Assembly: GCF_016859125.1 (NCBI RefSeq)
Contig: NZ_CP069338.1
Span: 1,426,001 to 1,490,000 of the forward strand
Source: Archangium violaceum
GTDB lineage: Bacteria > Myxococcota > Myxococcia > Myxococcales > Myxococcaceae
DNA: 64,000 bases
Reading direction: 5' to 3'
Position 1 is the first letter of the stretch. The number at the start of each line of letters is the position of its first letter. The translations under genes were made by a program, and so were the position numbers. The notes beneath the pieces are model-generated. The model was not told where the DNA came from. It was given only the letters and a program-made list of their open reading frames with translations, and did no database searches. Positions 1,279 to 20,792 of the stretch are shown here, piece by piece.

Positions 1279-1608
1279 AGGCTCTCCTTTCTTCTTGCAT
1301 GAACTGACAACCCGAACAGATGACGCCCCCCAGGGGGCTAGACACCATAGAACGAGAATGACACCTTTCTCAAGGAAAGCCAGAGACTTGAGCGGGCCCA
1401 ATCAGTAGCACGGTTTGGGCATCGAGGGCTATTAGCCCCGATTGCCCTGTGACTGGCTGAGGGCACCGCATCCGCCGTGGTGTTGTGAAACGCCATCGTC
1501 CCGGGTCCCCCACGTCATCACGGCGCTGCTCTCAATGAGAAGGATGCAACGGGCGGTTGCTCTGTTGGCAAGAGACAATACCGGAGAAAGCAGCAACGAC
1601 ATACAGTC
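1279..1608. other. Intergenic region between the glycosidase gene and the repA relic
   Basis: This stretch of about 330 bases holds the leader of the leftward glycosidase gene and the region upstream of the decayed RepA-like gene. Only short, unconvincing reading frames are seen. A small palindromic run (CCCCCCAGGGGG, about 1326-1337) is present, but I see no clear promoter or operator. Confidence 0.4.
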
Positions 1609-3808: not shown

Positions 3809-3906
3809 CACCGGGCCGGGTGCCCTACACCGAGGCGCCCACCTGGCCTGTCTCCAGAATTTTCAGTAGGGCCTGTCAGCGAAGAACAACCAAGAAGAAA
3901 TACGCC

Positions 3907-4266: not shown

Positions 4267-4332
4267 GTCTCCCTGGTTGAGGTAGGATCGAACGCCAGGA
4301 TTCGCTTTTCATGACCAAGGCAGGGAGCCGGG

Positions 4333-4998: not shown

Positions 4999-5002
4999 GC
5001 GC

Positions 5003-5100
5003 GCCCTCAACTCCTGCACCACGGATGCGGATGCGCGGGTGATGAAGATGGCCGATGGGGGCTTCCGACCCGCCTACAACCTGCAATTGGCGGTGGCCGG
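5003..5100 (+). mobile_element. IS1182-type transposase fragment
   Basis: Just after the DUF4336 stop codon, one forward frame reads TTDADARVMKMADGGFRPAY and then NLQLAVAG. This is close to the conserved block STTDPEARVMKMADGGFRPAYN of IS1182-family (IS5-related) transposases. Only about 32 codons survive. The fragment has no start, no stop of its own and no catalytic triad. It ends where sequence related to the IS91-type relic begins. Confidence 0.65.
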
Positions 5101-5146
5101 GAGGCGCTGGGAGGGCCACGAACGATTGTGGGAGTGGAAGTCACCA

Positions 5147-5203
5147 AGAGCATAGGACGGATTGAAGGCCTGTTGAGAGGTGGAGGACTGGAGCGGAGGG
5201 GCC
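5147..5203. repeat. 57-bp repeat, copy 1 (end of IS91-type relic)
   Basis: This sequence matches 7634-7690 in direct orientation with about three mismatches over 57 bases. Both copies lie at the 3' side of IS91-type transposase remnants, so they probably mark the same terminus of one element family. Confidence 0.8.
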
Positions 5204-5450
5204 AGCCTCTCTCCTGCCGTGGGCAGTCCCAGGTTCTTCACAATCGCTCTCACCCCTCCTGCTCCCTTCATGTACGCCAGCACCCGCCGCCTTCCTCCAC
5301 ACCTCACGCAGGCGAATACGTCGCAGTCGAACGTCCTCCTCAGCACCTCTGCCTGGTCCACACGCTGCCTCCTCTCCCTCTTCGCCTCCTTCCTGGCCGC
5401 TGCCTGGGGCTCCACCCTCGCCTCCTCCCCTCCGGCTTGGGGGAGCCATG
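5147..5450 (-). mobile_element. IS91-family transposase relic, copy 1 (C-terminal part)
   Basis: The reverse strand encodes LPQAGGEEARVEPQ, then TFDCDVFACVRCGGRRRVLA and GGVRAIVKNLGLPTAGE. This is the C-terminal zinc-finger-like tail (C-x-x-C-G-G, then a VRAIL-x-x-LGLP helix) of IS91-type HUH transposases common in myxobacteria and planctomycetes. The N-terminal zinc finger and the HUH/Y2 catalytic core are missing. The fragment joins the truncated AraC-type gene near 5450, which suggests that insertion followed by deletion removed that gene's DNA-binding half. A second remnant of the same family lies at 7634-8461. Confidence 0.75.
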
Positions 5451-5839
5451 AGCCGCTCACGCAGCGAGCGGCTCGAGGAGCCCCACAGCGCTTCCAGAGA
5501 GAGAGTCTGCTCTGCAAGTGCATCGGCAGGGACATCGAAGAAAGGGAGGGCGCCGCCAGGTCTGAATTTGACGCCGACGATGGGGCCAAGAGAGGTACCG
5601 ATGAGCAGCGGGCTGCTCCGTGCACCGCATAAGATTGCGCCGGAGTGGTCGGCGGACTCGCTCGTGCTCTCGCCGGCGTAGATACGAACCGGGCTCTCGC
5701 CGAGGAGGACCACGAGCGCCTGCGCACCGGTCGGCAGCACGCGCTGTCGCGGTGCCTGCCCGACGTAGTTGTCGGAGACCCATAGGGATTCGACGAGCCG
5801 ATCGAGCGGTGGCCTTGGCCGATAGAGCGTGTGCATCAT
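5451..5839 (-). pseudogene. Truncated AraC-family regulator (N-terminal ligand domain only)
   Basis: From ATG 5836 or 5839 the reverse strand encodes about 125 residues starting MHTLYRPRPPLDRLVESLWV, followed by QRVLPTGAQALVVLLGE and VGVKFRPGGALPFFDVPADA. This is the N-terminal domain (DUF6597-like) of a common AraC/XylS subfamily, where the phrase 'I-G-V-x-F-x-P-G-A' is typical. The expected C-terminal double helix-turn-helix is absent: sequence changes to the IS91-type relic near residue 129. Without DNA-binding helices it should not act as a regulator. Confidence 0.8.
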
Positions 5840-5918
5840 GGCGTGCGTTAACAGGTCTTGCAGATTAGGATGGGAAGCTGATGGACCGGCGAATATCGAC
5901 GTCACCCGAGGAAGCCAA

Positions 5919-6659
5919 ATGAGCACTCCGGCACGGTTGGACGGTACGGTATTCGCGTCGGGGACGCGGATGCTCTATGTGGGCCCCCTGGTTGCCACGA
6001 GGCGGCACGCGCACCATGCGGCCCAGATCGTCATGGCGCCGCAGGGGCTATCCATTGATGACGGTGCCAACGGACGCATTCGCACCTGCACGGCCGTCAT
6101 TCCCCCACGCCAGCCCCATGGACACGGCGCGTGCCCACATGCTGCCGTCCTGTTCCTCGACGGAGACGACTTGGCGAGCCGAGCGCTCTCTCGTAACGCC
6201 GAGCCTCGGTGCGAGACGTGGGGGCGCGACACGCTCGGTGTGAGGGTCCCTCGCGATCCTACGCCGGAGCAGGCACGCGCTCTCATCGCCTCGATTCTCT
6301 CCGCCGTCGACCTGCGCCAGCCACCGGGACCGCGACACCCGGCGGCACGCAGGATGTGCGCGTACCTCGATAGCTCCGACCCCGTCGACCTCGCGAGCCT
6401 CTCACACGAGGCCGGGCTCTCGCCCCGGCAGATGCGTCATGCCTTCGCGCGTGACGTCGGGCTCCCGATGCGCGCGTATCTGCGGTGGAAGCGCTTGCGC
6501 CGCGCCATCGCCGCGGTGGAGGAGGGGGCGAGCCTGAGTGCCGCCGCGGCCTCTGCCGGGTTCGCGGACAGCGCCCACCTGAGCCGCGTCTTCCGGGAGC
6601 AGTTCGGCATGACGCCAACGCAGGGGCTGAGCTCGGTCACGTGGCGGACGCTCGACTGA
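5919..6659 (+). CDS. AraC-family transcriptional regulator
   Basis: The product has 246 residues. The start ATG at 5919 follows GAGGAAGCCAA; the frame is open further upstream but without homology. The first 140 residues form a short cupin-like sensing domain (LYVGPLVATRRHAHHAAQIV, with several His that could bind metal). The C-terminal 100 residues hold the two AraC helix-turn-helix motifs: DLASLSHEAGLSPRQMRHAF and then SLSAAAASAGFADSAHLSRV with FREQFGMTPTQ. It is divergent from the truncated AraC gene and overlaps the convergent DinB gene by 23 bases at their 3' ends. The target is unknown. Confidence 0.88.
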   Translation: MSTPARLDGTVFASGTRMLYVGPLVATRRHAHHAAQIVMAPQGLSIDDGANGRIRTCTAVIPPRQPHGHGACPHAAVLFLDGDDLASRALSRNAEPRCETWGRDTLGVRVPRDPTPEQARALIASILSAVDLRQPPGPRHPAARRMCAYLDSSDPVDLASLSHEAGLSPRQMRHAFARDVGLPMRAYLRWKRLRRAIAAVEEGASLSAAAASAGFADSAHLSRVFREQFGMTPTQGLSSVTWRTLD

Positions 6660-7170
6660 CGAGGAACTCGGGGAATCCGTCCCTCCGGCGCGGCATCCCG
6701 GCTTGGTACATGATGACGTCCACGTTTCCGCGATGATGGGTCGTGTGTGTGACCACGTGGAGAATCATCGTGGCGGCGCTCATCGTCACGATCTTCCCGT
6801 CGGTGAAGCGCACGTCGCGAGGTCGTGCGAGCTCCTCCGGTCGGAGCGACGCCGTGGTCTCCACATACCAGCGGTCGATGGTCTCGGATTCGAGATCGAG
6901 CTCCTCGAGAGAGGGAATGACCGCCCTCTGTGTAGACTCGTAACCGTGCGGAACACCCTGCAGGTGGGCCTGAAAGATGTGTCTGACGACATGGATGTGA
7001 TCGAGGGCCCGCACGATCAAGTCTGCGCCCTTCTGCGACTCGAAGGACTCGACCGCGCGAAGGGCGGCGAAGAGCTGTCGGTTGGCCCACGCGGTGTGAG
7101 TGACGAGCATTTGGAGGGGCGTTGGCGCGAGGGACTCATCAGCGGACGCTATCTGGAGATGACGGTTCAT
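6637..7170 (-). CDS. DinB family protein
   Basis: The 177-residue protein has the DinB/YfiT four-helix pattern: an early WANRQLFAALRAV helix with its first His (THTAWAN), a middle ALDHIHVVRHIFQAHL helix, and the closing metal motif HVVTHTTHHRGNVDVIMYQ with H-x3-H. DinB proteins bind a divalent metal and often act as thiol-dependent transferases or are stress-induced; the substrate is unknown. The start may be ATG 7170 or ATG 7182. GGAGGT lies directly before 7170, too close for ideal spacing. The 3' end overlaps the neighbouring AraC gene tail to tail. It is one of the few intact genes in a decayed stretch. Confidence 0.85.
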   Translation of the reverse strand: MNRHLQIASADESLAPTPLQMLVTHTAWANRQLFAALRAVESFESQKGADLIVRALDHIHVVRHIFQAHLQGVPHGYESTQRAVIPSLEELDLESETIDRWYVETTASLRPEELARPRDVRFTDGKIVTMSAATMILHVVTHTTHHRGNVDVIMYQAGMPRRRDGFPEFLVSRASAT

Positions 7171-7633
7171 ACCTCCGAACATAGGCAGCGATCGGACGGA
7201 GCGCTTGAACGCAACGGCGGACCCGACGCCAGGTCGCCAACGAGGAGCGCTGGATCGTGGAGCGAACGTTCGGGTGGCTGATGAGTCTTCTCGCGCACGA
7301 TGTGCCACTCGCGGTGCCCACCTGCTCGGAGCAACTCGATCACGAAGCCGAGCTCGCGGTGGTGGTGGTGGGGCGGCGGGGGTGCAACATTCCTCGGGAC
7401 CGGGCGCTGGAGTGGACAGGACTGATCCAAGGTCCGCAGGAGAGGGTTTGAAGAGGCGGGGAGCAAGTCCAGACATTCTCGGGCAAAGAGGGCGCATCCC
7501 TCCGGACGGCGGCTGAAAGCGGATCGCCGTGGAAGGCCAGGACAGAGGGTGCACGGGCCGGACAGCCAGGGGAGAGAAGGCGGGGAAGGCCGGAGCGGAA
7601 ACAGCTGGCGGGCGCTCAGGCAAGTGTGGCCAG
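7171..7633. other. Gene-poor stretch between the DinB gene and IS91 relic copy 2
   Basis: About 460 bases without a complete gene. It includes the short IS5-type fragment at 7233-7290 and a G-rich GGTGGTGGTGGGGCGG stretch near 7360. The rest shows no recognisable coding signature. It probably consists of mobile-element debris. Confidence 0.4.
7233..7290 (+). mobile_element. IS5-type transposase fragment
   Basis: A forward frame reads VANEERWIVERTFGWLMS. The phrase R-W-x-V-E-R-T-F-x-W-L is the conserved block of the last catalytic domain in IS5/IS427-group transposases. Homology fades within about 20 codons on either side. It is too short for anything but a relic. Confidence 0.5.
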
Positions 7634-7690
7634 AGAGCATAGGAAGGATTGAAGGCATGTTGAGAGGTGGTGGACTGGAGCGGAGGGGCC
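7634..7690. repeat. 57-bp repeat, copy 2 (end of IS91-type relic)
   Basis: Direct repeat of 5147-5203 with about three mismatches. Similar sequence resumes after a copy-specific insertion of roughly 180 bases (about 7700-7880), so the two elements diverged by insertion or deletion after transposition. Confidence 0.8.
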
Positions 7691-8461
7691 GAGGAGGGCC
7701 GCTGACGGGGGCCGCCCGAGCAGTGCACCAGTCGGTGGAGAAGCCGCGCAGCCCGTTGGGGTACACGCCGGCCCTGGCCGCGCTCCCAGCAGGTGCGAGG
7801 CAGGGGCCTGGCTCTCTTGGCTGGGGCGGCTCGAGCCTCAACACCACGCGGCTTGAGGGGGCTCGCGCGCCGGGGCCTGCCTCTCTCCTGTCGGGGGCTG
7901 GCCCAGGTGCTCCACAATCGCTCTCCCCCCCCTTCCTTCACCTACGCCAGCACCCGCCGCCTTCCTCCACACCTCACACACGCGAACACGTCCCGTGCTT
8001 TCCGTCCTGCGCAGCAGCCCGGCCTGGTCCCATCGGAGTGTGCGCTCCTTCTTCGGCTCCTCCTCCTTCTCGGCAAAAGACGGGCTCTCCTCCTCTGGCT
8101 CCCGCTTCACCCCTGCTTGGGGGACCAGAAATGGCCGCAGTTGGGCGCCTGGAGCGAAGACGCCGTGGAACCTCGTGAGATTTGCCCGAGGTGGAGGCAC
8201 CAGGGATGTCACACGCCGTAACAGTTCCAGGCCGGTGAAGACGCAGCCGCTGCTGTAGCGACTGCGCCTGGTACGCCTGCCGCGCATCCTCGGTCCCTTG
8301 CGCGGGCAGGACCCCTCTTCTTTCCAACAACCGCAGCACCCGGTGGCGCACCACCCTCAGCAGCCGCACCACCTCTGCTTGCGTGGGCGGCGGCAAAGGC
8401 TCGAAGCGCACGCCGCCCTCCCTTGGCACGAAAACACCGTCCAGCACCAGCGAGTGGAAGG
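7634..8461 (-). mobile_element. IS91-family transposase relic, copy 2 (multiply frameshifted)
   Basis: Several reverse frames together encode most of the C-terminal half of an IS91-type transposase: HAFHSLVLDGVFVPREGG, then LPPPTQAEVVRLLRVVRHR, then LVPPPRANLTRFHGVFAPGA with LRPFLVPQAG, then WDQAGLLRRT and RAIVEHLGQPPTGE. These correspond to the family's H-x-x-x-L-D-G-V-F block, the P-P-x-R-x-x-x-x-x-H-G-V block and the C-terminal helix. At least two frameshifts separate the blocks. The 5' boundary lies at about 8461, immediately after the helix-turn-helix of a LysR-type gene. Confidence 0.75.
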
Positions 8462-8621
8462 CGTGGTGCGGTGCAGGAGCTGCACCCCGACATGGCCCTC
8501 CAGGAAGGCGATGGCTCGAGTGACAGCGGCCGGAGAGCGGCCCAGGCGCCGACCGGGCCCCTGCCAGGCTCCCCTCGTCCACCGCCGTCACGAATACCCG
8601 CATCGCATCAAACCGATCCAT
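8462..8621 (-). pseudogene. LysR-type regulator fragment (frameshifted, truncated)
   Basis: ATG 8621 begins MDRFDAMRVFVTAVDEGSLA, the standard start of a LysR DNA-binding domain. After a one-base shift near 8560 the next frame continues GRRLGRSPAAVTRAIAFLEG and then HVGVQLLHRTT, completing the winged helix-turn-helix. The protein then changes to IS91-type sequence. The effector domain is gone. An extra C in a GGGGCCC stretch explains the shift. It was probably the divergent regulator of the broken hydrolase gene at 8758. Confidence 0.8.
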
Positions 8622-8757
8622 TCTTCCTCTTCGCGAAAGAGTGACTTGTGGTGGAGCCTAGAGGTTCAGGCGCTCCACGCAGCGGACTATCTCTCCTCAC
8701 ACAGACGCGATGCCGCGTCGCGGACGCCATCCGACGTCTGAACCGAGGAGTCCGTCC

Positions 8758-9190
8758 ATGTCAGTCTCCACTGCTCGTATTGCTGCATGGCTTCCCGACG
8801 TCATCTCACATGTATCTCAACCTCATCCCCGCGCTGGCGGACCGCTATCACGTCATCGCGCCCGACTACCCCGGCTTCGGGCTGAGCGCGATGCCGGACC
8901 GGAGGGAATTCAACTACAGCTTCGCGACGTTCACGGACCTCGTCGATGGGCTCCTGAGCCAGCTCGGCGCCACGCGCTACACGTTGTATGTGATGGATTA
9001 CGGTGCGCCGGTCGGCTTCCGGTTGGCGTTGAAGCACCCGAAGCGGGTTACCGCGCTCATCGTGCAGAACGGCAACGCCTATGAAGAGGGCCTCCAGTCC
9101 TTCTGGGATCCGCTGAGGGCCTACTGGGCGGACGGCTCGGCCACCCATCGCGAGGCGCTGCGCCCGACCCTGGGGCTGGTGTTACCGCGC
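8758..9190 (+). pseudogene. Broken haloalkane dehalogenase/epoxide hydrolase-like gene
   Basis: An ATG at 8758 with GAGGAG nearby starts a few codons, but the homologous frame begins only at about 8763 with SPLLVLLHGFPTSSHMYLN, so the N-terminal strands are lost or shifted. It continues HVIAPDYPGFGLSAMPDRRE, LYVMDYGAPVGFRLAL (nucleophile Asp in a D-Y-G-A-P elbow) and ALIVQNGNAYEEGL. Homology stops near 9165, about 140 residues before the expected lid, acid and His region. This elbow is typical of the haloalkane dehalogenase/epoxide hydrolase branch of the alpha/beta-hydrolases. It is inactive as read. Confidence 0.75.
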
Positions 9191-9307
9191 ACGCTTGTTG
9201 ATGGAGATTTGTACCGGCTGGTTGATGGGCATCAGCGAGGGCGCACGGGCGCGCGTCACGCTCGTTGCTTCCCGCCACGTCCCGGTAGTCATCAGTCCCA
9301 ATCCCCC

Positions 9308-10375
9308 TCATTCGGCTGCCGTACCGCCCTCTCCGTTCACGCGCCACGCCCGCGGAGACAGGCCCGTCCAACGACGGAAGGCGTGGTGGAAGGCGCTCGG
9401 CGCGGAATAGCCGAGCCGCCACGCGACCTCGGCGATAGGGGTGCCCGCTTCGAGGAGCGTGCACGCCTGCTGCCGCCGGAAGGCCTCGCGCTCGGCCTCC
9501 AGTGACGTGCCCTCGTCACGAAGGCGTCGCTGAAGCGTACGGGGGCTCATCCGCAGGCGGGCCGCCAGCTGCGTGAGCTCCGCGCCCGGCTCAGGCAACA
9601 GCTCGGGCATCAGTGCCCGGACCCGATCCACCGTGCGGGACGAGGAGGGAAGGCCCGCCAGCATCCGCTCCGCGGCCCGCTCGAGCACACCCGACAAGCC
9701 CGCGTCTCCTCCGGGCAACGGTCTCGCGAGAAGGGCGACCGGAAACACCAGCTCGTCCTGGGGCGCACGGAAGGAGACCGGCACGCCAAGCACGCGCGCA
9801 TACACCGAGGCCTCCCTGGGGCGAGGCCCGCGCAACCGGAGGCGGGCCCCCGGCAGTCCTCCCACCAGCCGCCCCCCATTCACGAGGAGATCCGCGAAGA
9901 CGAGCTGGGCCATCAAGCGGTGCGCGGGGCGCTCGGGCCCGTACGGGTGGTACGTCACCGACACCCGCCCGGCTCCTCGCTCCATCGCGAAGCGCTCCCC
10001 CTCGCTCCACAGGCGCTGGTACCGCAGCACGTGCTCCAGCGCCTCACCGAACGTGCGGCTGCTCACCATGAGGAAACCGAGCGCATCGAGATCCTCCGCC
10101 CGGAGGGCCTCGCCCACGTGCAACCCGAGACATCCGTCCCCCAACCGAGCCGCCGCTTCCTCCAGGAGCGTGTAGACGGAGAGCAGAGGCACTCGCGCCT
10201 CCGGCTCGGTGAGCCGCACGCGCTCGAGCCCGGAGGCCTCCAGCAGGACACGCCGGGGAAGGCCCCTGGCCTCGGCGGAGTCGAGCACGCGCAGCACCCA
10301 TCCGGCCCAGGCGGTGGGGCCCGCGGGTGCCGGGGGCGGTTGGCGCGTGGGAGCACTCCTTCTGTCGCGTGGCAT
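9308..10375 (-). CDS. AraC-family regulator with arabinose-binding-like N-domain (OruR/OntR type)
   Basis: The 355-residue protein has the layout of AraC regulators with the long N-terminal 'Arabinose_bd' domain. Signs are LLEASGLERVRLTEPEARVP, then GLHVGEALRAEDLDALGFLM and LEHVLRYQRLWSEGERFAME. The C-terminal helix-turn-helix pair comprises LTQLAARLRMSPRTLQRRLR, where regulators of ornithine or amino-acid catabolism have the same S-x-R-T-L-Q-R-R-L, and AEVAWRLGYSAPSAFHHAF with RRWTGLSPRAWR. The start is ATG 10375, or the adjoining GTG 10378. It is divergent from the Rieske oxygenase gene 36 bases away and is its obvious candidate regulator. Confidence 0.9.
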   Translation of the reverse strand: MPRDRRSAPTRQPPPAPAGPTAWAGWVLRVLDSAEARGLPRRVLLEASGLERVRLTEPEARVPLLSVYTLLEEAAARLGDGCLGLHVGEALRAEDLDALGFLMVSSRTFGEALEHVLRYQRLWSEGERFAMERGAGRVSVTYHPYGPERPAHRLMAQLVFADLLVNGGRLVGGLPGARLRLRGPRPREASVYARVLGVPVSFRAPQDELVFPVALLARPLPGGDAGLSGVLERAAERMLAGLPSSSRTVDRVRALMPELLPEPGAELTQLAARLRMSPRTLQRRLRDEGTSLEAEREAFRRQQACTLLEAGTPIAEVAWRLGYSAPSAFHHAFRRWTGLSPRAWRVNGEGGTAAE

Positions 10376-10411
10376 CACTCACGTCCGATGGGGCTTCTCT
10401 AACTTGGAGAC

Positions 10412-11461
10412 ATGGAAAGCCCTGGACGGATGATAACGGATGAGGACAAGCGGATACGGGGAATGGAGGCACGAGAGGACTTCGTGCGCGACACGTGGTA
10501 CCCGATATGGGAATCGAAGCGGTTGGGCCGTCAGCCGGTGCGAGTCACCCGGCTCGGCCGCGAGCTCGTGCTGTGGCGGGACGGCCAGGGCCAACCGGTG
10601 GCCCAGGAGGCAGCCTGCCCCCACCGGGGCGCCGACCTCTCGCGGGGCCGGGTGGTGGGCGGGTGCCTGGAGTGCCCCTACCACGGCATGCGCTTCGCGG
10701 CGGATGGCGCGTGCGTGCGCGTGCCCTGCGAGGGAAAGGCGCGACCGATCCGAGCCGACCTGCGGGTGAAGGGATACGCGGTGCGGGAAAGCCTCGGGCT
10801 GGTGTGGCTGTGGTGGGGCGAGCAACGGGAGGAGCTTCCCCCGCTGCCCTGGAACCACGAGATTCCCGGGACGGGAGCGGGCACGTGCACGGCCACGTTG
10901 ACCTGGAATGTCCCCTTCGCCCGGGTGATGGAGGGGAACCTGGATCTGCATCACTTTCCCTTCGCGCACCGCCGGTGGGCTCCGGGGATGGGGACCTGGT
11001 TGGACCCATACACGGCGCGCCTCGAGGGCGACGTCATCCACACCCACGGCGTCATGAGAGAGGACGACGGCAAACCCTGGGACGGCCGAAGCGGTTTCGA
11101 GGCGGAGCTCAGGGTGCTCTTTCCTCATCTGCTGCTCGCCCGCTTCGGCCGCCGCACCCAGGCCCTGGTGGCGGCCACGCCCATCGACGCGGAGAACACC
11201 TGGGTGGTCTTCCGCTACCGCAGCCAACTCCCGCTCGTGGGCGGGCTGGTGGCGTGGCTCCTCGTTCAAACGGAGCTGCGATTCATCCAACCGGAGGACT
11301 ACGCGCTGCTGCGCGACAGCGAGCCGAGGCACCCCGTCCGGCAGGACTTCCACCTGGTGAGAGCCGACGCGGGTATCGCGCTCTGGTTCCGATTGTATGA
11401 GCGGCGGCTGGAGGCCCAGCGGACGCCGTCCAGTCACGCGCCAGTCATGCATGTCCCCTAG
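10412..11461 (+). CDS. Rieske (2Fe-2S) non-haem iron oxygenase, alpha-subunit type
   Basis: The 349-residue protein carries a Rieske cluster site C69-x-H71 (CPHRGADLSRG) and C88-x2-H91 (CPYHGMRF). It also has a mononuclear iron motif E174-x3-D178-x2-H181-x4-H186 within VMEGNLDLHHFPFAHRR. N-terminal REDFVRDTWYPIWES is typical of the single-component PaO/VanA/KSH-like branch, which uses an external ferredoxin-type reductase to hydroxylate or demethylate aromatic, steroid or pigment substrates. A C-terminal hydrophobic stretch (LVGGLVAWLLVQTEL) may lie at the membrane. ATGs at 10412, 10430 and 10463 are possible starts. No reductase gene is adjacent. Regulation by the divergent AraC protein is likely. 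Confidence 0.88.
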   Translation: MESPGRMITDEDKRIRGMEAREDFVRDTWYPIWESKRLGRQPVRVTRLGRELVLWRDGQGQPVAQEAACPHRGADLSRGRVVGGCLECPYHGMRFAADGACVRVPCEGKARPIRADLRVKGYAVRESLGLVWLWWGEQREELPPLPWNHEIPGTGAGTCTATLTWNVPFARVMEGNLDLHHFPFAHRRWAPGMGTWLDPYTARLEGDVIHTHGVMREDDGKPWDGRSGFEAELRVLFPHLLLARFGRRTQALVAATPIDAENTWVVFRYRSQLPLVGGLVAWLLVQTELRFIQPEDYALLRDSEPRHPVRQDFHLVRADAGIALWFRLYERRLEAQRTPSSHAPVMHVP

Positions 11462-11463
11462 GG

Positions 11464-11489
11464 TGCCTGGGCTTTCAAGGTCCCGGGCA
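11464..11489. terminator. Hairpin between convergent genes
   Basis: TGCCTGGG pairs with CCCGGGCA (8 bp with one G-T pair) around a 10-base loop, just after the Rieske stop codon and before the convergent gene's 3' end. No strong T-tract. Confidence 0.45.
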
Positions 11490-11499
11490 TCCCCCTCCT

Positions 11500-11952
11500 T
11501 CAAAGGACGACAGCATGAAAAAGCGACTGCTCATGGGACTTCTTGGCTTCACACGGCTCACGGCGCTGCGACTGGCAATCCTGTAGATTCCGGTACACCC
11601 ATCCATCACGAGTCGAAATGTACACGGTCCCCCCCGGCCCCCTCAGGCCCGGCAGGACCTTCACACAGCCCGACTTGTAGTCAAAAGAGACATAGAGGCC
11701 GTCCTCGATGCGGGCCTCCTGCACCGAGACGATGACATTGTCCGTGCCGACGCCATCCATCTCCAGCGAGAAGCCAGAGGGGGAACGATAGGTGCAGAGT
11801 GTCGCGCCATCACCGTACTTCTTCGGTTCGCATTTCCTGGAGCGCGAGAGCAGATCGAAGGTCATCCCATAAGAGGTTGCCGAAGCAGGCTCCAGCAGAA
11901 GCAGGGGCACGAGGAAGGCGAGGACACGGCTCTCATGGAGACCCCGACACAT
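11500..11952 (-). CDS. Small secreted protein of unknown function
   Basis: About 150 residues. The signal peptide (RVLAFLVPLLLLEPASA) ends before TSYGMTFDLL. The mature part has four or more cysteines (KCEPKKYGDGATLC, YKSGCVKVLP, LQDCQSQRREPC), suggesting disulphides and a periplasmic or extracellular location. ATG 11952 was preferred over the upstream ATG at 11973 because GAAGG lies about 7 bases before it and the signal peptide is then of normal length. No domain was recognised. It converges on the Rieske gene. Confidence 0.6.
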   Translation of the reverse strand: MCRGLHESRVLAFLVPLLLLEPASATSYGMTFDLLSRSRKCEPKKYGDGATLCTYRSPSGFSLEMDGVGTDNVIVSVQEARIEDGLYVSFDYKSGCVKVLPGLRGPGGTVYISTRDGWVYRNLQDCQSQRREPCEAKKSHEQSLFHAVVL

Positions 11953-13520: not shown

Positions 13521-14360
13521 TCACAGGCCGCTGACATCCACCTCTTCACGGATGGACAGGCGGTAGTCGTCCGATGCCCACTCGTTCTGGTAACGCACGG
13601 AGCCGGTGAGGAAGCCTTCCGCGCTCATCACGTTCTCCGTCTTGTTCTGGCTCGCCGGGCGCACGTTCCACACCTTGCCCTTGAAGCTGAAGACGCTGAC
13701 GCTGGACAGCTCGAGCTTGCTGCCATCCGAGCCCAGCAGGCGGTCGCCTTCCTTCAACGCGTGGGCCTTCACCATGGTGCCATCCGCCAGGAGCATCGGG
13801 TGCGTGGAGGTGACCTCGATGCGGCGGCCGTCCGAGGACTGGAGCAGGAAGATGTCCTCCTGGGTATCGCCCGCCACGTAGGAGCGGATGGGCTGATTCC
13901 CGAAGCTCAGCGCATCCAGCCGGGCGTCCGCCGTGAGCGCGGTGACCTGGGTCAACCCGGACGCGTAGGCCTCGGGGACGGTCACGTCCCGCCCGCCGAA
14001 GTCCACATGCTGGGAGGGGGTGAAGCAGCCGGCCACGCACGTGCCCAGCTTGATCAGCCCCGTGAGGCAGGCCTGCGCCTCACTGGCGGGGACGTGGAAG
14101 GAGCACGTCGAACCGGCCGGCACGTTCGGGTACGCGTAGCAACCGTTGGTGAACACCTGGTATTCGTTGGCCTCGTTCAGGTAGGCCTCACGCGCGGCGG
14201 TGATGAGGCCGCACTTCCGGGCCCATGCGTTGCGGCCACGAGCCAGCTCGGAGGTCTCCAGCTGGTCATCCTGGAAGCAGCGGGTCTGGAGCTGGGCCAG
14301 GGCCGTGCTGGACATGGAGGTGGCGACGACGGCGAGCGCGATCAGGATATTCTTCTTCAT
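13521..14360 (-). CDS. Secreted Hint-domain protein A
   Basis: The 279-residue product starts at ATG 14360 behind GAGGGAGACC. A signal peptide (MKKNILIALAVVATSMSSTA) precedes a Cys-rich N-domain (TRCFQDDQ, GRNAWARKCG, GCYAYPN, CSFHVP). The C-terminal half looks like a Hint (Hedgehog/intein) fold: a Cys start in CVAGCFTPS, PIRSYVAGDTQEDIFLL, block-B-like IEVTSTHPMLLADGTMV, then LKEGDRLLGSDG and GKVWNVRP. The C-terminal His-Asn of splicing inteins is absent, so any autocatalysis would stop at ester formation or N-terminal cleavage. It is paralogous to 18866-19708; both end in DVSGL. It lies 42 bases downstream of the M4 peptidase gene and is probably cotranscribed. Confidence 0.75.
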   Translation of the reverse strand: MKKNILIALAVVATSMSSTALAQLQTRCFQDDQLETSELARGRNAWARKCGLITAAREAYLNEANEYQVFTNGCYAYPNVPAGSTCSFHVPASEAQACLTGLIKLGTCVAGCFTPSQHVDFGGRDVTVPEAYASGLTQVTALTADARLDALSFGNQPIRSYVAGDTQEDIFLLQSSDGRRIEVTSTHPMLLADGTMVKAHALKEGDRLLGSDGSKLELSSVSVFSFKGKVWNVRPASQNKTENVMSAEGFLTGSVRYQNEWASDDYRLSIREEVDVSGL

Positions 14361-14402
14361 GAATGGTCTCCCTCGGGGTTTCTCAGAGGCGGGAACGGGC
14401 GC

Positions 14403-15968
14403 TCACTGCACACCCACGGCGCTCCACGCGTCGCGGACGGCGTTGACGGTGTCCGCCGGGTACCGGTCCGCCGCCGCCTGGATGGTGAGGGCGCGTGCAT
14501 CGGACATGTTGATGTTGGCGGTGAAGTAGTTCTGGTTGGCGAAGTAGAAGGTCTGCGCCGCGCGGTTCATGCCCACGCCGGCCACGTTGACGGCCGTCTT
14601 GCCTCGCGGGTGCGAGCCGCCGGTGACGAGCAGCTTGAAGGCGAGGTTGGGGATGCCCGAGTTCCAGTGCACGCCACCGTTGTCCGCGGTGCCGACGTAG
14701 CGCTCCGGGTAGTAGTCACGGGACGAGCCGTCCTGCGTCGGGTTGGCCATGTAGCGCAGGGCGTCGCCCGCGGTACCCGGCGTCCAGATGTCCTCGCCGA
14801 TCTTCCACACGTCGGCGTCCACGGTGCCACGCGCCCAGCTCTCGCAGATGGCCGCCGCGATGTCCGACAAGCTCTCGTTGAGCGCGCCGGAGTCGTTGCG
14901 GTAGACGAGGCCGGAATCGTACTGGGTCACCGCGTGGGTGAACTCGTGCGAGACCACGTCCAGGTCGCGGCCCAGCTGGCCGGAGTTGAAGTTGTCACCG
15001 TCGCCGAAGACGATCTGCGTGCCGTTCCAGAAGGCGTTGACGTAGTTGTTGCCGTAGTGGACGGTGCTGGTGATGGTGGCGCCCGCGTCGTTGAACGAGT
15101 CACGCGCGAAGATGGTCTCGTAGCAGGCATACGTCGTGCCGATGTGGTCGTAGTTCTGGTCCACGTGGGCGTCACCGACCGCGCCGTTGCCCTCCGCGCG
15201 CCGCAGCGTGCCGGGCAGGGCCGAGCCGTTGTTGGCGGTGTGGACACGCCGGTTCTGGGCCGAGTGGAGCTGCGGGTGCACGTCCAGCACGCGGCCGCTG
15301 GCGGCATCCACATACACGATGTCCCGCGCCGGCTCGCCGTCGCGCTCGCCCGAGCGGATCTGCTCATAGGCCAGCGACAGCGTGCCCTGGGCATCCAGGA
15401 AGTACACCAACTGGGCCTCGCCCTCGGGCTTCAGCGTGGAGATGCCCTCCAGCGCAGCGACGGCCGCGGCCTCCGGCGTCATGCGCGCCAGCGTCATCGG
15501 CTCGGGCGCGCCCCGGGCCGAGCCATTCACCGCGTACACCCCACCCGACGCGTCCACGTGAAGGATGAGCTCGCCGCCCACCACGCGCACCCCGTTGCGT
15601 ACCTGGTCGTAACGCACGTGGGTGATGCCGACCTCGTCCACGCGCGCGGAGCGCACGCGCAGCTCCTTGGGACTCAGGCGGAACAGGGGGGCAACGCCGT
15701 TGAGCACGGGCGCCAACGCCTGCTCGGCCTCGGCCGCCAGGCTCTTGCCACGCAACCCGGAGCGGGCCAGCGACGTCTTCACCGAGCCGAAGTTCCCGCG
15801 GATGAACGTGGGCACCCCTCCTGGTCCCTCGGTGACAACCTGGGCCGACAGGCCTGTCTTCGTCTCCCCGGCCCCCTCCAACGCACCGGCGTCGGACTCA
15901 CCGCCGCACGCTGAACCCAGGGTGATGAGGCACACTCCCGCCAGACTGCGCTTCCAGTTCGTATTCAA
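14403..15968 (-). CDS. M4 family metallopeptidase (thermolysin/bacillolysin type), preproprotein
   Basis: This 521-residue protein starts at a TTG (15968) with AGGAGG six bases upstream; no in-frame ATG lies between the upstream stop and this codon. The N-terminus ends in GSAC (Cys21), a possible lipidation site. Residues about 50-230 form an FTP/PepSY propeptide (FRLSPKELRVRSARVD, VVGGELILHVDASGGVYAVN). The catalytic domain has H341-E-F-T-H345 and the third zinc ligand E365 in GALNESLSDI, plus the M4 C-terminal phrase TFYFANQNYFTANINMSDAR. It lacks PPC modules, unlike the second M4 enzyme at 51.5 kb. The 42-base gap to Hint protein A suggests an operon. Confidence 0.93.
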   Translation of the reverse strand: MNTNWKRSLAGVCLITLGSACGGESDAGALEGAGETKTGLSAQVVTEGPGGVPTFIRGNFGSVKTSLARSGLRGKSLAAEAEQALAPVLNGVAPLFRLSPKELRVRSARVDEVGITHVRYDQVRNGVRVVGGELILHVDASGGVYAVNGSARGAPEPMTLARMTPEAAAVAALEGISTLKPEGEAQLVYFLDAQGTLSLAYEQIRSGERDGEPARDIVYVDAASGRVLDVHPQLHSAQNRRVHTANNGSALPGTLRRAEGNGAVGDAHVDQNYDHIGTTYACYETIFARDSFNDAGATITSTVHYGNNYVNAFWNGTQIVFGDGDNFNSGQLGRDLDVVSHEFTHAVTQYDSGLVYRNDSGALNESLSDIAAAICESWARGTVDADVWKIGEDIWTPGTAGDALRYMANPTQDGSSRDYYPERYVGTADNGGVHWNSGIPNLAFKLLVTGGSHPRGKTAVNVAGVGMNRAAQTFYFANQNYFTANINMSDARALTIQAAADRYPADTVNAVRDAWSAVGVQ

Positions 15969-16108
15969 GACATCCTCCTTCTCTGCATGTGGTTGCTACC
16001 GCTGTTGCGCTTCGGCATGAGGACAGACGTCTCCCGTTCCGGTGAGGCCGGGAGACACTGCTTGGACCGAACACAATGGACCGTCCGGGTGCCGGACGGA
16101 TGTGGGAG

Positions 16109-16124
16109 CCCGCGTTTCCGCGGG
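16109..16124 (-). terminator. Hairpin after the membrane-anchored protein gene
   Basis: CCCGCG-TTTC-CGCGGG directly follows the TAA of the leftward gene at 16126. A second hairpin (CCGTCCGG/CCGGACGG) lies just beyond, near 16081-16100. Confidence 0.5.
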
Positions 16125-16125
16125 A

Positions 16126-16989
16126 TTAGAGGTGATGCGTCAGCCGCTGGACCTCGTCCGTCGTGGCCCCTGACTCATACAGCCCCGCCAGCAGCGCGTT
16201 GCGCAGCAGGCTCTTGAGCTTGTCACTCCCCAACTGCTTGAAGGTGCTCACCGCGCGCTGACGATCCAGCTGGGCCAGCCGGAAGAAGAGATCATACTTC
16301 TCACCGACCAGGCTCTTCTTCGCCACCTCGGACAGTGCTGGGTCGATGGGCTCCAGCGCGAGCGAAACCATGGCGTCACGCGCCGCCGCGTCCTCGGGAG
16401 CCAGGGAGTGGAGCAGGTCGATCATCGCCATGCGATCCAGCACGGCCTCGGGCTTGCCCTCCACGAACCGCGTGTCCGCCGGCAGGGCCGCGAGTGCGCT
16501 GGGATCCGCCAGTTCCTGCTGGAGCGCCGTGATGTTCTCACGCCCGCCACGGTTCAGCTCCTGGATGAGGGTCTCCTCGCGAAAGAAGACATTGAAGCGT
16601 CCCTCGCGATACGTGCGCGCGGCCGTCCGGATGGCCTCGCGGCGCGCGGCCGGAGTATCCGCGGGGGCGGGCATGGGGGGCGGCTCCGGGGCAGCCCCCC
16701 TGCCCCCGGAAGCAACCGCCTCCCGTGACGCCGCGCTGGAATCGCCCGTGGAGGCGCCCGCCGCGGTGCCCGGAGCCCTCTCCTCCCGGGCAGCCGCCCT
16801 GACCGCCGCTGGAGGGCTGGAAGGCGCCGGCCGGGGAACCTCGGCTCCGGATTGCCGGGACAGCGCATGAGGCCAGAACTGGATGACGACGGTGTACATG
16901 CCAGCCGCACCGAGCAGCAACAGGGCAATGGCTGGCGCTACCCACCGGGCCACGAGGGCCTTCCGGTGGGGAAGGTCATTGCTTCGCAT
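16126..16989 (-). CDS. Membrane-anchored protein of unknown function
   Basis: A 287-residue protein from ATG 16989 with GAGGAGGATCC in front. One transmembrane segment (about residues 16-36, VAPAIALLLLGAAGMYTVVI) is followed by an Ala/Pro/Ser-rich linker (about residues 50-110). A helical C-terminal domain follows (REGRFNVFFREETLIQELNR, ADTRFVEGKPEAVLDRMAMI, AKKSLVGEKYDLFFRLAQLD). It has one membrane pass near the N-terminus and a probable periplasmic body. No domain is recognised. It sits between the M1 and M4 peptidase genes on the same strand, so a role in handling secreted peptidases is possible but only by association. Confidence 0.65.
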   Translation of the reverse strand: MRSNDLPHRKALVARWVAPAIALLLLGAAGMYTVVIQFWPHALSRQSGAEVPRPAPSSPPAAVRAAAREERAPGTAAGASTGDSSAASREAVASGGRGAAPEPPPMPAPADTPAARREAIRTAARTYREGRFNVFFREETLIQELNRGGRENITALQQELADPSALAALPADTRFVEGKPEAVLDRMAMIDLLHSLAPEDAAARDAMVSLALEPIDPALSEVAKKSLVGEKYDLFFRLAQLDRQRAVSTFKQLGSDKLKSLLRNALLAGLYESGATTDEVQRLTHHL

Positions 16990-17034
16990 GGATCATCCTC
17001 CTCGAATGGGACCCTGGCAGCAGTCCGGTTCCGG

Positions 17035-18783
17035 CTAGAAGAGCCACCGTTGCGGCGGCGCTTCCAGGGACTGCAAGCCATTGGACTGATTCCAACTGAC
17101 GACCCGGTTCTCTGGATCCACCGCCACCGAGACGACCGGCTCCCCGAAGGGCACCGTGGCGCTGGTGGTGGCCTCGGTGGGTTGCAGCCCGAAGCTCACG
17201 GGGACGTTCACCGTCTGCGTCGGACCCTTCACCTGGATCACCACGCTCACAGGATAGATCTTTCCCGAGAAGAAGGTCTTCTGTGTCACCTCCACGCGCA
17301 GCTCGCCATTCTGCTGTGTGGTGTTCACCGTGAAGGTGGGCCAGTCCGTCTCCCCCGCCCCATACACCCAGGCATTGAAGTAGGCGTCCAGGTCCCGCCC
17401 CGAAGCCCGCTCCAGCTCTGCTTGCAGATCCGCGACGCCGCGCGTGCCAGGCGAACCCGAGAGGAATTCCTTGATGGCCTGGACGATGGTGTCCTGGCCG
17501 CCAGGCAGCAGATCCTCCAGCTGCACGAAGAAGAGCATGGAGCCGGTGCCGTACGTCTCCATCGCATAGGACAGGAAGGGGGTCGGGCGATCAGTCGGCC
17601 GTGGATGGTAGAAGGCGGTGCGCGCCAGACGATCCCAATACGCGCGTGTCCGCGCGGCGTCCGCGGGCCAGTTCCTGACCTCGTAGACATAGGTCAGGTA
17701 TTCGGCGATGGCCTCCTTCCATGCGAAGTCATACGCGTCCGCGAGGGTGGTGCGATTGCCCGCCCACTGGTGGACGATCTCGTGCATGAGCGTGTGGCGC
17801 GTCATGTCCGCGTATTCCCTGGGGGGGAGATCCGGCAGATCCTCACGCAGGATGATGTTGGCGGGATGCTCCACGCCCAGCCATTGGGTGGGCGCCCCGG
17901 CGATGCGCAGCTCCTCGCCATAGGGGAGCGGCCCGAGCAGGCCCTTGATCCACCGCACGTAGCCCGCCATGACGCTCTTGGAGAGCGACGCGGCGAGCCG
18001 GCCACCCGGCACCTCGAAGAAGACCAGCTTCGTGCCATCCACGTCGAGCCATTGATTCCTGCTCCACGCGCGATTGGAGGCGACGGCGAAGGAGGAATAG
18101 GTGGGCGCTGGCGTCTGCAGCAGCTCGCAGCGCGTCTTGGTGCTGTTCACCCGGGTGCGTTTGCCCGGGCAGAGGGTGACCTCCCCATCGGCATGGGTCA
18201 CCTCGAGGACATATCTGGCGAGCTGCCCCGGATCGTCATTGCACGGGCCAAACCTGTCACATTGCTCGACCCAGTTGAGGAGGTATGAGAAGGTGTTGCC
18301 AGCGTGATCCCTCGTCCGGGTGAATCCCACGGGGGAGAAGTCGTACGTCTGCTCGGGGACGGTGATGCCGCCTTCCAGCAGGACCTGGCCGGCGAAGAGC
18401 GGCTCGCCGCAAACGCGCAGGGTGCCACTGGCCGGCTGGACGCTGACGGGCTGCCCCGTGTTCCACCGGATGTCGGTGACATTGTCGGGGGCGTCCAGCG
18501 TGATGCAATCCCCCCCAGGAGGGGCCACGTCGAAGTAGAGGCTCGAGCGAGCCTCACGCGTGGTGAGGTTGAAGTCGTAGTGGTATCGCTGGATGTCCGG
18601 TGGGAGCTCGCCGGGAGCGACGTCGACATGCCCTGAATCCATGTCGATGTCACCTGGCTCATCCGGGCCCGCCTCGGTGCAGCCGGCTCCCAGCGCCCCC
18701 AGGGTCGACAGCACAACCGCGAGCCTGGTGCGACGGAAGATTCTGGTGCGACAGAATATTTTGGAAGAGAATGTTCGAAGCAC
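17035..18783 (-). CDS. M1 family metallopeptidase, lipoprotein
   Basis: The 582-residue product starts at GTG 18783 after a G-rich stretch. The signal ends in LGAGC (Cys35), a good lipobox, so it is probably anchored at the cell envelope. The gluzincin motif H334-E-I-V-H338-x18-E357 (MHEIVHQWAGNRTTLADAYD, then KEAIAEYL) is that of aminopeptidase-N-like M1 enzymes. The exopeptidase GAMEN motif is not evident at the usual distance upstream, where APTQWLGVEHPANIILRED occurs instead (M1-like 'GVEHPAN'). The C-terminal 100 residues are beta-rich (LRVEVTQKTFFSGKIYPVSV). It lies upstream of the membrane protein and M4 genes and downstream of Hint protein B. Confidence 0.88.
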   Translation of the reverse strand: MLRTFSSKIFCRTRIFRRTRLAVVLSTLGALGAGCTEAGPDEPGDIDMDSGHVDVAPGELPPDIQRYHYDFNLTTREARSSLYFDVAPPGGDCITLDAPDNVTDIRWNTGQPVSVQPASGTLRVCGEPLFAGQVLLEGGITVPEQTYDFSPVGFTRTRDHAGNTFSYLLNWVEQCDRFGPCNDDPGQLARYVLEVTHADGEVTLCPGKRTRVNSTKTRCELLQTPAPTYSSFAVASNRAWSRNQWLDVDGTKLVFFEVPGGRLAASLSKSVMAGYVRWIKGLLGPLPYGEELRIAGAPTQWLGVEHPANIILREDLPDLPPREYADMTRHTLMHEIVHQWAGNRTTLADAYDFAWKEAIAEYLTYVYEVRNWPADAARTRAYWDRLARTAFYHPRPTDRPTPFLSYAMETYGTGSMLFFVQLEDLLPGGQDTIVQAIKEFLSGSPGTRGVADLQAELERASGRDLDAYFNAWVYGAGETDWPTFTVNTTQQNGELRVEVTQKTFFSGKIYPVSVVIQVKGPTQTVNVPVSFGLQPTEATTSATVPFGEPVVSVAVDPENRVVSWNQSNGLQSLEAPPQRWLF

Positions 18784-18825
18784 CGCGCCCCCCCCTGTGG
18801 GAATTGCTTGTGTATGGTGAGACCC

Positions 18826-18849
18826 GCGTCCCCGCTTTCGCGGGGACGC
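18826..18849 (-). terminator. Perfect 10-bp hairpin after Hint protein B
   Basis: GCGTCCCCGC and GCGGGGACGC flank a TTTC loop, 17 bases past the stop of the leftward gene at 18866. It suggests that M1 transcription can be uncoupled from Hint B. Confidence 0.6.
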
Positions 18850-18865
18850 TCAGGCCCGGCGTTGC

Positions 18866-19708
18866 TCAGAGCCCGCTGACGTCCGCGTCCTCACGGACCG
18901 ACAGGCGGAAGTAGTCCTGGGACCACTCGTTCTGGAAGCGCACGGAGCCGGTCATCAGGCCCTCCACGTCCAGCACGTTCTCCATCTTGACCTTGCTGAC
19001 GGGCTGCACGTTCCAGACCTTGCCCGTGTAGCGGAACACGCTCACCTGGCTCAATTCCACCTTCTGGCCGTCAACGCCCAGCAGCACGTCACCCGCCTTG
19101 AGCGTCCTCGCGCGCACCATGATGCCATCACCGTTGACCATCGGGTGCTCGGAGGTCACCTCGACGCGGCGGCCGTCCACGGTCTCCAGGACGAAGATGT
19201 CCTCCACGGTGTCGCCCGCGACGAAGGTGCGGATGGGTTGCTCGGAGAACTCCGGCCGAGCCAGCGTGGCGTTCTGGGTGAGCGCCGTCACCGTGCTCAG
19301 TCCGGCGAAGGGGGCTTCGGCGATGGGCCAATACTTCTCACCGAAGCGCACCTCTTCCGTGCCGGTGTAGCAACCCACCATGCACGTTCCCAGGTACGTC
19401 GGGGTGAACGACAGGCAAGGCTCGGCTTCGGAAACAGGGACGCGGAAGGTGCAGGCGGTACCCGTCGTGTGATTCGGATAGGTATGGCACCCGCTCGCGA
19501 AGATGACGTAGTCTCCGAAGGAGTTGTAGGCCGTCTCGCGCGCCGCATTGATGTAACCACATTTCCTCGCCCACGCGTTACGGCCCACGGCCTGCTCCGG
19601 ATACAGGATTTGATCATCCTGGAAGCAGCGCGTCTCGACTTGCGCCCACGCCGACGACGAGATCGAAAAAGCAGCCACGACAATCAGACGCACAAACATG
19701 ATTCTCAT
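18866..19708 (-). CDS. Secreted Hint-domain protein B
   Basis: A 280-residue paralogue of Hint protein A with the same layout. The signal peptide (VRLIVVAAFSISSSAWA) precedes a Cys-rich domain (TRCFQDDQ, GRNAWARKCGYINAARET, GCHTYPN, CTFRVP) and a C-terminal Hint-like part: GTCMVGCYTGTEEVRFGE, PIRTFVAGDTVEDIFVLE, VEVTSEHPMVNGDGIMV, LKAGDVLLGVDGQKVELS, GKVWNVQP, ending DVSGL. The T-x-E-H-P block and the G-C start are conserved between the two copies while surrounding residues differ, so selection appears to act on both. ATG 19708 or 19699 could be the start. It heads the block of secreted-peptidase genes and may be transcribed first. Confidence 0.75.
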   Translation of the reverse strand: MRIMFVRLIVVAAFSISSSAWAQVETRCFQDDQILYPEQAVGRNAWARKCGYINAARETAYNSFGDYVIFASGCHTYPNHTTGTACTFRVPVSEAEPCLSFTPTYLGTCMVGCYTGTEEVRFGEKYWPIAEAPFAGLSTVTALTQNATLARPEFSEQPIRTFVAGDTVEDIFVLETVDGRRVEVTSEHPMVNGDGIMVRARTLKAGDVLLGVDGQKVELSQVSVFRYTGKVWNVQPVSKVKMENVLDVEGLMTGSVRFQNEWSQDYFRLSVREDADVSGL

Positions 19709-20078: not shown

Positions 20079-20792
20079 ATGCCCGGGCTGTTGGGAGTCT
20101 GGCTCGGAGTCCTGCTGACTGTTGGCTGTGGGAGGCCCGTCGGCGTTCCAGAAGAGCCGGAGGTGCTGGACTCCGCTCTGCAAGACACGCGGGCGGGAGA
20201 CCGTATCGCGGCGGGAGTCAGCCATTCGTTGGCGGTGCGCCCGGATGGCACGGTCTGGGCTGTGGGCGGCAACGGCTATGGCCAGCTGGGAGGTGGGACC
20301 ACGAGCGCTCGCCGGACGCCGGTGCAGGTGCAAGGGCTGAGCGGAGTGGCGGCCGTGGATGTGGGCTCCAACCACTCGCTGGCGGTGCTCTCCGACGGTA
20401 CCGTGTGGGCCTGAGGTGACAACTCCACCGGCCAGCTGGGGGATGGCACCACGAACCCCAGCTCCGAGCCCGTGCAGGTGCGCGAGCTGAGCGGGGTGGT
20501 GGCCGTGGCCGCTGGCACCCTTCACTTGTTGGCGGTGCTCTCCGACGGCACCCTGTGGGCATGGGGCTCCAACGAATACGGCCAGCGGGGAGATGGGTCC
20601 ACGGCCTGGCTCTCCTCGCCGGTGCGGGTGCAGGGGCTGAGCGGAGTGGTGGCCACGGCCGCTGGCGGCGGCCATGTGTTGGCGGTGCGCTCCGACGGCA
20701 CCCTGTGGTCCTGGGGATACAACCCCTACGGCCAGTTGGGCAATGGAGCGCCCGTGTACGCCACCACAGCCATCCGCTCCCTGCTGTATTGA
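20079..20792 (+). pseudogene. RCC1-repeat lipoprotein gene with one premature stop
   Basis: The frame from ATG 20079 encodes a lipoprotein signal ending LLTVGC, then RCC1-type beta-propeller repeats (HSLAVRPDGTVWAVGGNGYG, then HSLAVLSDGTVWA). A TGA at 20412-20414 interrupts it exactly where the repeat calls for Trp (W-A-W-G-D-N). The same frame then continues GDNSTGQLGDGTTNPSSEPV, HLLAVLSDGTLWAWGSNEYG and HVLAVRSDGTLWSWGYNPYG to 20792. A single G-to-A change (TGG to TGA) therefore explains the break; about four repeats are present, fewer than the seven of a full propeller. Myxobacteria have many such surface lipoproteins. Sequencing error or readthrough are alternatives. Confidence 0.75.

Follow-up and report, generated by a model that had tools for sequence, protein, structure and literature searches.

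The window, a 64,000-nucleotide stretch of Archangium violaceum DNA, carries two secreted paralogues, HintA and HintB, which, as far as their sequences can tell, are probably (about 0.6) N-terminally self-cleaving proteins of a C-type-BIL-like kind, set in a conserved surface cassette. Hint proteins of this family are almost always accompanied by a membrane-anchored helical protein and by secreted peptidases or lipoproteins, and this recurrent company suggests an unstudied surface system built on protein self-cleavage. To our knowledge, the roles of bacterial Hint domains beyond inteins and toxins are poorly known. The conserved cassette combines several Hint paralogues and Hint-less relatives of the N-domain with a single dedicated partner in the membrane, and it offers concrete candidates for the acceptor and the purpose of cleavage.

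Gene layout and the Hint domain

As the original prediction described, HintA and HintB bracket M1, single-TM and M4 genes on one strand (Table 1), and the intergenic gaps from HintB through M1, TM and M4 to HintA are 82, 45, 157 and 42 nt. The two proteins are 55% identical over their full length (E 3e-116), and each begins with a signal peptide that ends in A-x-A-Q. The predicted Cys-rich N-domain was found in both, with six conserved cysteines, as were the G-C start, the T-S-x-H-P block and the DVSGL ending. In HintA, the signal peptide covers residues 1-23, the N-domain residues ~24-111 (6 Cys) and the Hint domain residues 112-279, where Cys112 is Cys1, and Thr184 and His187 belong to block B. 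The M4 gene matched Peptidase_M4_C (1.2e-46) and an FTP propeptide (5.4e-16) in Pfam, and its product, a putative lipoprotein (LGSAC), has a HEFTH motif. The M1 gene just reaches the curated cut-off of Peptidase_M1 (2.4e-6, Pfam), and its product contains LGAGC and a HEIVHQWAGN...E zinc motif. Scans for promoters and terminators found none.

Table 1. Features of the Hint gene cluster, in window positions
Feature	Position	Strand	Basis
HintA: signal peptide, Cys-rich N-domain and C-terminal Hint domain	13521..14360	-	sequence, profile searches
Hint domain of HintA (Cys112 to Leu279)	13524..14027	-	profile and Foldseek matches
M4 (thermolysin-family) peptidase, putative lipoprotein	14403..15968	-	Pfam, sequence, synteny
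Membrane-anchored helical partner, single TM	16126..16989	-	AF2 model, Hint linkage of homologues
M1-family peptidase-like putative lipoprotein	17035..18783	-	Pfam at cut-off, sequence, synteny
HintB: HintA paralogue, same architecture	18866..19708	-	sequence, profile searches

The C-terminal ~168 residues of HintA and HintB are identified by profile as a Hint domain. An HMM search against Hint and intein profiles, proposed with the original prediction, matched inteins, BIL, PT-HINT and Intein_splicing. With a profile of 21 Hint sequences, inteins and a BIL domain were found in the PDB (4e2u, 4.4e-7; 6rpp, 4.8e-6; 2lwy, 7.2e-6), and the T-x-x-H of the family aligned opposite the intein T-x-x-H. 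In Pfam, PT-HINT and Intein_splicing were matched by 17 of the 21 relatives and the Hedgehog Hint model by 3, PT-HINT (PF07591) being the best match, while the scores of single Hint members fall under the curated cut-offs. No Pfam match to a VWA domain, which lies upstream in Vint proteins, was found in HintA or HintB. Structure prediction supported the expected fold, although with a low-confidence model. Foldseek gave 45 matches to HintA at E<=1e-3, among which the listed ones are inteins, BIL and Hedgehog (1at0, for instance, at 8e-4), and in VIA residues 112-233 matched the KlbA intein (Z 8.0, 109 aligned, 3.8 A). The expected placement of Cys and His did not gain the same support, since the mean pLDDT of 48 is low and the geometry of the catalytic site is beyond what such a model supports.

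The catalytic residues are highly conserved. Among 55 aligned sequences, Cys1 is present in 54 (Ser in the other one), Thr in all and His in 54, and each of the three is present in all 21 members of the divergent set. In 68/69 proteins the Hint domain has no cysteine other than Cys1, and the number of N-domain cysteines is even in 64/69, which together suits a free catalytic thiol. The last N-domain cysteine stands at position -4 in most proteins, and exactly two N-domain cysteines, C28 and C108, are invariant in the A3 alignment. This conservation makes self-cleavage at G-C plausible. The splicing His-Asn is absent as predicted, with G-S, G-D or similar at that place in the 21 divergent relatives.

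Company of the Hint genes

Hint relatives occur in 64 of the 195 genomes of the phylum. The order HintB-M1-TM-M4-HintA recurs in L034-L038, L040, L041 and L043, and a rearranged version is present in L042; because the same order recurs at a Hint identity of 53-78%, the arrangement is not due to chance. The hosts are predatory or multicellular bacteria, to whose way of life secreted peptidases and proteins of the cell surface are central. In addition, paralogues of the N-domain that lack the Hint domain adjoin Hint genes, and in 9 of 10 cases their homology ends around Cys112, between HintA residues 110 and 117. At L079, L080 and L081, N-domain proteins that lack Hint are arranged in tandem.

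The Hint genes have a dedicated partner in the TM protein. All 52 copies found, in 39 genomes, are no more than 2,845 nt away from a Hint gene, and they adjoin lipoproteins and often peptidases (M4/M1, M4 or S8). The homologues were searched with the C-terminal domain; with a profile of this domain, the small-genome family f22 was also found to carry the partner (1e-21, 2e-19). In the AF2 model, an N-terminal TM helix is followed by a Pro/Ala-rich linker and an all-helical C-terminal domain (residues 113-284, mostly pLDDT ~90 or more). The partner has no family in Pfam, no PDB relative by sequence and no significant fold match. Our guess is that, at the inner membrane, it probably binds either the precursor or the neighbour of the precursor.

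A reading of the partner as a lipase foldase, which has a similar layout of TM, Pro/Ala linker and helices, was set aside, as neither a PDB sequence nor a significant Foldseek match was obtained. No lipase foldase was among the 50 VIA matches listed, at the head of which stand armadillo/HEAT-like helical folds; their Z reaches 9.5, which is unconvincing for helices. Similarly, the Bdellovibrio TM protein P0002 is alike in layout, but the domain profile gave no match to it.

Possible fates of the N-domain

We infer the following course for the cleavage and its acceptor, and for what the partner proteins do. HintA and HintB would be exported as precursors, in which the Hint domain at the C-terminus follows a disulfide-rich N-domain. 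Once exported and folded, Cys112, aided by Thr184 and His187, would attack the Gly111 carbonyl, and the N-S acyl shift would transfer the N-domain to the Cys112 thiol. Water or another nucleophile would then break the thioester and free the N-domain from the Hint domain. Splicing could not follow, because the downstream part is no more than a tail of ~20 residues and the proteins lack the His-Asn motif. In the conserved surface cassette, the Hint protein(s) and the dedicated helical partner in the membrane are joined by large lipoproteins or peptidases, one or two in number; the freed N-domain would act with these.

It is possible, though only tentatively proposed, that the thioester is resolved by a specific acceptor, which would fix the N-domain covalently to the cell surface in a Hedgehog-like manner. 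The acceptor could be a lipid, a glycan, or an amine or hydroxyl on the helical partner or on a co-encoded lipoprotein. As in Hedgehog (Hog), a secreted N-domain precedes a C-terminal Hint domain with Gly-Cys and T-x-x-H and no His-Asn, in line with the fold match to 1at0, and the constant linkage with one dedicated partner also favours anchoring. Moreover, an acidic stretch ~20 residues before T-x-x-H (G-D-T-x-E-D in HintA/B, D-R-D or E-x-R-D elsewhere) lies near the place of Hedgehog Asp303, which couples cleavage to cholesterol transfer (PMC4695875), the equivalence being by approximate position. However, this family is bacterial, has several copies per locus along with dedicated partner genes, and lacks a sterol-recognition region; in HintA/B, only ~168 residues separate Cys1 from the protein end, and only ~20 come after the last Hint strand. 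In addition, no acceptor motif was identified, and the Hint-less paralogues suggest that the N-domain works unattached too. The family can serve as a bacterial comparison for Hedgehog-type processing minus the sterol part. No description of a cassette of Hint, partner and lipoprotein or peptidase was found in the literature, and one speculative extension is that these genes form an undescribed bacterial system that would use Hint chemistry to move a secreted domain rich in disulfides onto a specific surface acceptor, as a counterpart of Hedgehog anchoring, with the cargo differing by locus.

The Hint domain might instead have ceased to be a processing enzyme and be kept in a surface complex as a module for structure or binding. 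C-terminal cleavage residues are absent, and in a few relatives a catalytic residue has been replaced (Cys to Ser at L048 9517-10659; His to Gln at L046 6793-8037), so some copies may be inactive. Nevertheless, near-complete conservation of Cys1, Thr and His in highly divergent relatives and the retention of one unpaired cysteine are unexpected for mere structure, and we consider this explanation unlikely.

Peptidases of unrelated families (M4 with M1, M4, or S8) recur beside Hint genes in several clades, and the Hint clade correlates with the partner type. These peptidases may be cargo, activators or targets, as in the original prediction. A narrower reading is that the N-domain inhibits the co-encoded peptidases, acts as their propeptide or targets them, and that Hint cleavage would toggle their activity. 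This reading appears improbable, as the M4 and some S8 partners carry propeptide domains of their own (FTP or I9), and at L046, L047, L050 and L054 the Hint genes lie beside beta-propeller or unknown lipoproteins with no peptidase recognised nearby. In the survey of whether homologues always adjoin M4/M1 peptidases, the association was recurrent but failed at these four loci, so the arrangement can do without a peptidase. Hint genes are accompanied more constantly by the helical partner than by the peptidases. The lipoproteins of L055, L057, L058, L048, L078 and L083 have a conserved D, G-H-G and T-S-W resembling the S8 triad, but a PDB profile search and hhalign against the S8 partners gave nothing for them as S8 peptidases.

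In PT-HINT polymorphic toxins, the toxin is located after the Hint domain. Release of a toxin by Hint is very improbable here even though PT-HINT is the nearest Pfam model, because in HintA/B the Hint domain is itself C-terminal, no toxin domain was found, and nothing matched in the defence and phage family libraries.

Relation to described Hint proteins

HintA and HintB share the fold, Cys1 and block B with A-type BIL domains and inteins, but lack His-Asn and a C-terminal partner sequence to splice. This kind of Hint protein is already known (Bürglin 2008; Dori-Bachash et al. 2009, as cited in PMC9185962). Bürglin 2008 described a bacterial Hint subgroup (MXAN_6253, STIAU_1829 and others) of secreted proteins, whose C-terminal Hint-like domain contains motifs A and B and the beginning of motif F; upstream of it, two cysteines are conserved in all members (PMC2362128). 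Compared by description, the HintA/B family is similar in its signal peptide, C-terminal Hint domain and two invariant N-domain cysteines, whereas the account of the subgroup in that paper (PMC2362128) describes neither the neighbouring genes nor a partner protein, a Hint-less paralogue or a mechanism. Dori-Bachash et al. 2009, as cited in PMC9185962, described C-type BIL domains with a putative predator-specific domain, PPS-1, in predatory bacteria. The present family, found in Myxococcota and Bdellovibrio with a shared upstream N-domain, is likened to these by description only. The Bdellovibrio plasmid protein has the N-domain and the Hint domain in the same order as the Myxococcota family.

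Gene order of the window locus

In the 12.7-Mb myxobacterial genome harbouring the window, genes for two secreted paralogues, HintA and HintB, bracket two peptidase-type genes and a single-transmembrane (TM) protein gene on one strand, and the original prediction of such a Hint pair agrees with the coordinates, the 55% identity of the two proteins and their common motifs (six conserved N-domain cysteines, G-C, T-S-x-H-P and a C-terminal DVSGL). Their signal peptides end A-L-A-Q or A-W-A-Q. Since the gaps from HintB to HintA are 82, 45, 157 and 42 nt, the arrangement is compatible with one transcript; a sigma-70 promoter and terminator scan returned zero sites. The same order is conserved in the Myxococcus-type loci L034-L038, L040, L041 and L043, while L042 carries the set rearranged. 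Upstream of HintB, short ORFs are similar to an RCC1-repeat protein, which appears fragmented in the window; the counterpart in L040 has ~676 aa.

Coordinates of the window locus genes and of related features (local to the locus for loci with L-numbers)
Locus	Feature	Coordinates	Strand	Transcription order
Window	HintB	18866-19708	minus	first
Window	M1-type peptidase-like putative lipoprotein	17035-18783	minus	second
Window	Single-TM protein	16126-16989	minus	third
Window	M4 peptidase	14403-15968	minus	fourth
Window	HintA	13521-14360	minus	last
Window	RCC1-like short ORFs	20079-20792		
L040	RCC1-repeat protein	4102-6132		
L079	Tandem N-domains	6321-7454		
L080	Tandem N-domains	5747-7096		
L081	Tandem N-domains	1186-2328		
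L040	N-domain with Cys-rich repeats	7720-8691		
L034	N-domain with Cys-rich repeats	10899-11870		
L043	N-domain with Cys-rich repeats	14890-15705		
L046	Paralogue, catalytic His to Gln	6793-8037		
L048	Paralogue, Cys1 to Ser	9517-10659		
L039	Long Hint family	7295-9907		
L056	Long Hint family	7312-9342		
L087	PKD/TSP1 lipoprotein ending in N-domain and Hint	3838-6573		
L087	TM-linker-helical protein	6570-7292		

Hint domain and its conserved residues

Both paralogues have a C-terminal Hint domain. Searched one by one, they remain under the Pfam cut-off (PT-HINT 5.8e-5), while 17 of 21 divergent relatives match PT-HINT and Intein_splicing, and a profile of these 21 retrieves from the PDB inteins and the Clostridium thermocellum bacterial intein-like (BIL) domain (4.4e-7 to 7.2e-6), with the family T-x-x-H opposite that of intein block B; the predicted Hint assignment is thereby upheld. 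The AlphaFold model of HintA, built from 12 close sequences, is of poor quality (mean pLDDT 48); with this low-confidence model, Foldseek gave 45 matches at E<=1e-3, the matches listed being inteins, BIL domains and Hedgehog, and VIA aligned the model range 112-233 with the KlbA intein over 109 residues (Z 8.0, 3.8 A) and the model with Hedgehog 1at0 over 65 (Z 5.6, 2.1 A).

Bürglin 2008 (PMC2362128) described a bacterial Hint subgroup to which MXAN_6253 belongs; its members have signal peptides and, upstream, a pair of conserved cysteines, features which fit this family. According to citing literature, a new type of BIL domain was reported from predatory bacteria in Dori-Bachash 2009, and a later paper (PMC9185962) uses the name C-type BILs for them and links these to a PPS-1 domain. 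HintA, HintB and their relatives are best placed in the Hint superfamily, where they match the Bürglin subgroup by its description and, judged from published descriptions, are probably C-type BILs. The cassette appears to be the new part, the Hint proteins being of a kind already known.

In known Hint domains, Cys1 performs an N-S acyl shift aided by Thr and His (PMC4695875, PMC7765530). Cys1 (Cys112 of HintA) is conserved in 54 of 55 relatives, with Ser in the remaining one, block-B Thr in 55/55 and His in 54/55, and each is invariant in the divergent set (21/21). The splicing His-Asn is indeed absent, as had been noted, its position reading G-S, G-D or similar in the 21 divergent relatives. 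Among 69 proteins, the Hint domain (~170 residues) lacks any cysteine other than Cys1 in 68, and the N-domain cysteine count is even in 64, which we read as paired structural disulfides in the N-domain and one free catalytic thiol. The last N-domain cysteine lies at -4 from Cys1 in most of them and at -2 in one lipoprotein subgroup. Two paralogues, at L046 and L048, carry substituted catalytic residues.

Fate of the N-domain

The most likely reading, with a probability of roughly 0.6, is that Gly111-Cys112 undergoes an N-S acyl shift and the N-domain is then released, the cleavage being what we infer from the conserved residues. Transfer of the N-domain to a specific acceptor would be more exciting and is rather unlikely. 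A purely structural Hint domain is still less probable because of the residue conservation, and toxin processing is disfavoured by the protein architecture.

N-domains are also encoded without Hint. In Myxococcus-type loci the convergent gene beyond HintA is such a copy (44-53% identity), and homology ends at HintA residue 110-117, the Hint border, in 9/10 cases; at the more distant loci L079, L080 and L081, a gene adjoining the Hint gene encodes two tandem Hint-less N-domains. The window's genome yielded zero Hint-less copies. Since such proteins exist, an N-domain released by the proposed acyl shift would resemble proteins made free. At L040, L034 and L043, Hint-less N-domain proteins carry at their C-terminus a row of short Cys-rich repeats of the C-G-D-G-x-C type.

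Cassette composition and distribution

Distant Hint loci have other large genes, yet again a TM protein with linker and helical domain. Searching 142 genomes of the order with two partner C-domain queries gave 36 and 17 matches, that is, 52 distinct partner genes in 39 genomes, and all 52 lie <=2,845 nt from a Hint gene; the TM helical protein is a constant partner of Hint genes. Its AlphaFold model has a confident all-helical domain (residues 113-284), and PDB searches by sequence and by fold gave zero significant matches. The reverse linkage is looser, and the long Hint family of L039 and L056 is a different group. These unrelated-looking proteins (650-870 aa, C-terminal Vint/Hint-like domain) occur as a tandem pair near position 2.22 Mb of the window's genome and singly in many relatives.

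The large partners are mostly putative lipoproteins, by lipoboxes read from the sequences, and include M1 and M4 peptidases in the window, Big_5 and M4 (L044, L045), S8 subtilases (L049, L051, L052, L073, L074, L082, L084, L085) and SBBP propellers (L046, L047, L049, L051). Whether M4/M1 peptidases always neighbour Hint homologues had been asked; M1, M4 and S8 recur, but none was recognised near the Hint genes at L046, L047, L050 and L054 (a close relative of propeller-type L047), which makes a nearby peptidase a repeated rather than a universal feature. A further lipoprotein family, with conserved D, G-H-G and T-S-W, lies beside lipoprotein-type Hint genes (L055, L057, L058, L048, L078, L083) and may be a divergent serine peptidase, a reading that profile comparisons did not support.

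In the Hint tree, HintA and HintB form two sister clades, both in each Myxococcus-type genome, and the L044 and L045 pairs arose inside their own lineages: multiple copies per locus evolved repeatedly.

Hint relatives occur in 55/145 genomes of the order and, by profile search, in 64/195 of the phylum. A Bdellovibrio sp. HAGR004 plasmid (L087) carries a lipoprotein with the family's N-domain and Hint, followed by a protein of partner-like layout, for which the C-domain profile detected no homology to the partner family. Five genomes of one family of the same phylum (G172, G173, G175, G178, G179; L073-L078), unusually small for it at 1.3-1.8 Mb, carry the Hint family, with the helical partner nearby in L073 (C-domain match 1e-21), L074 (2e-19) and, more weakly, L075 (8e-5), and S8 and kelch neighbours in L073 and L074.
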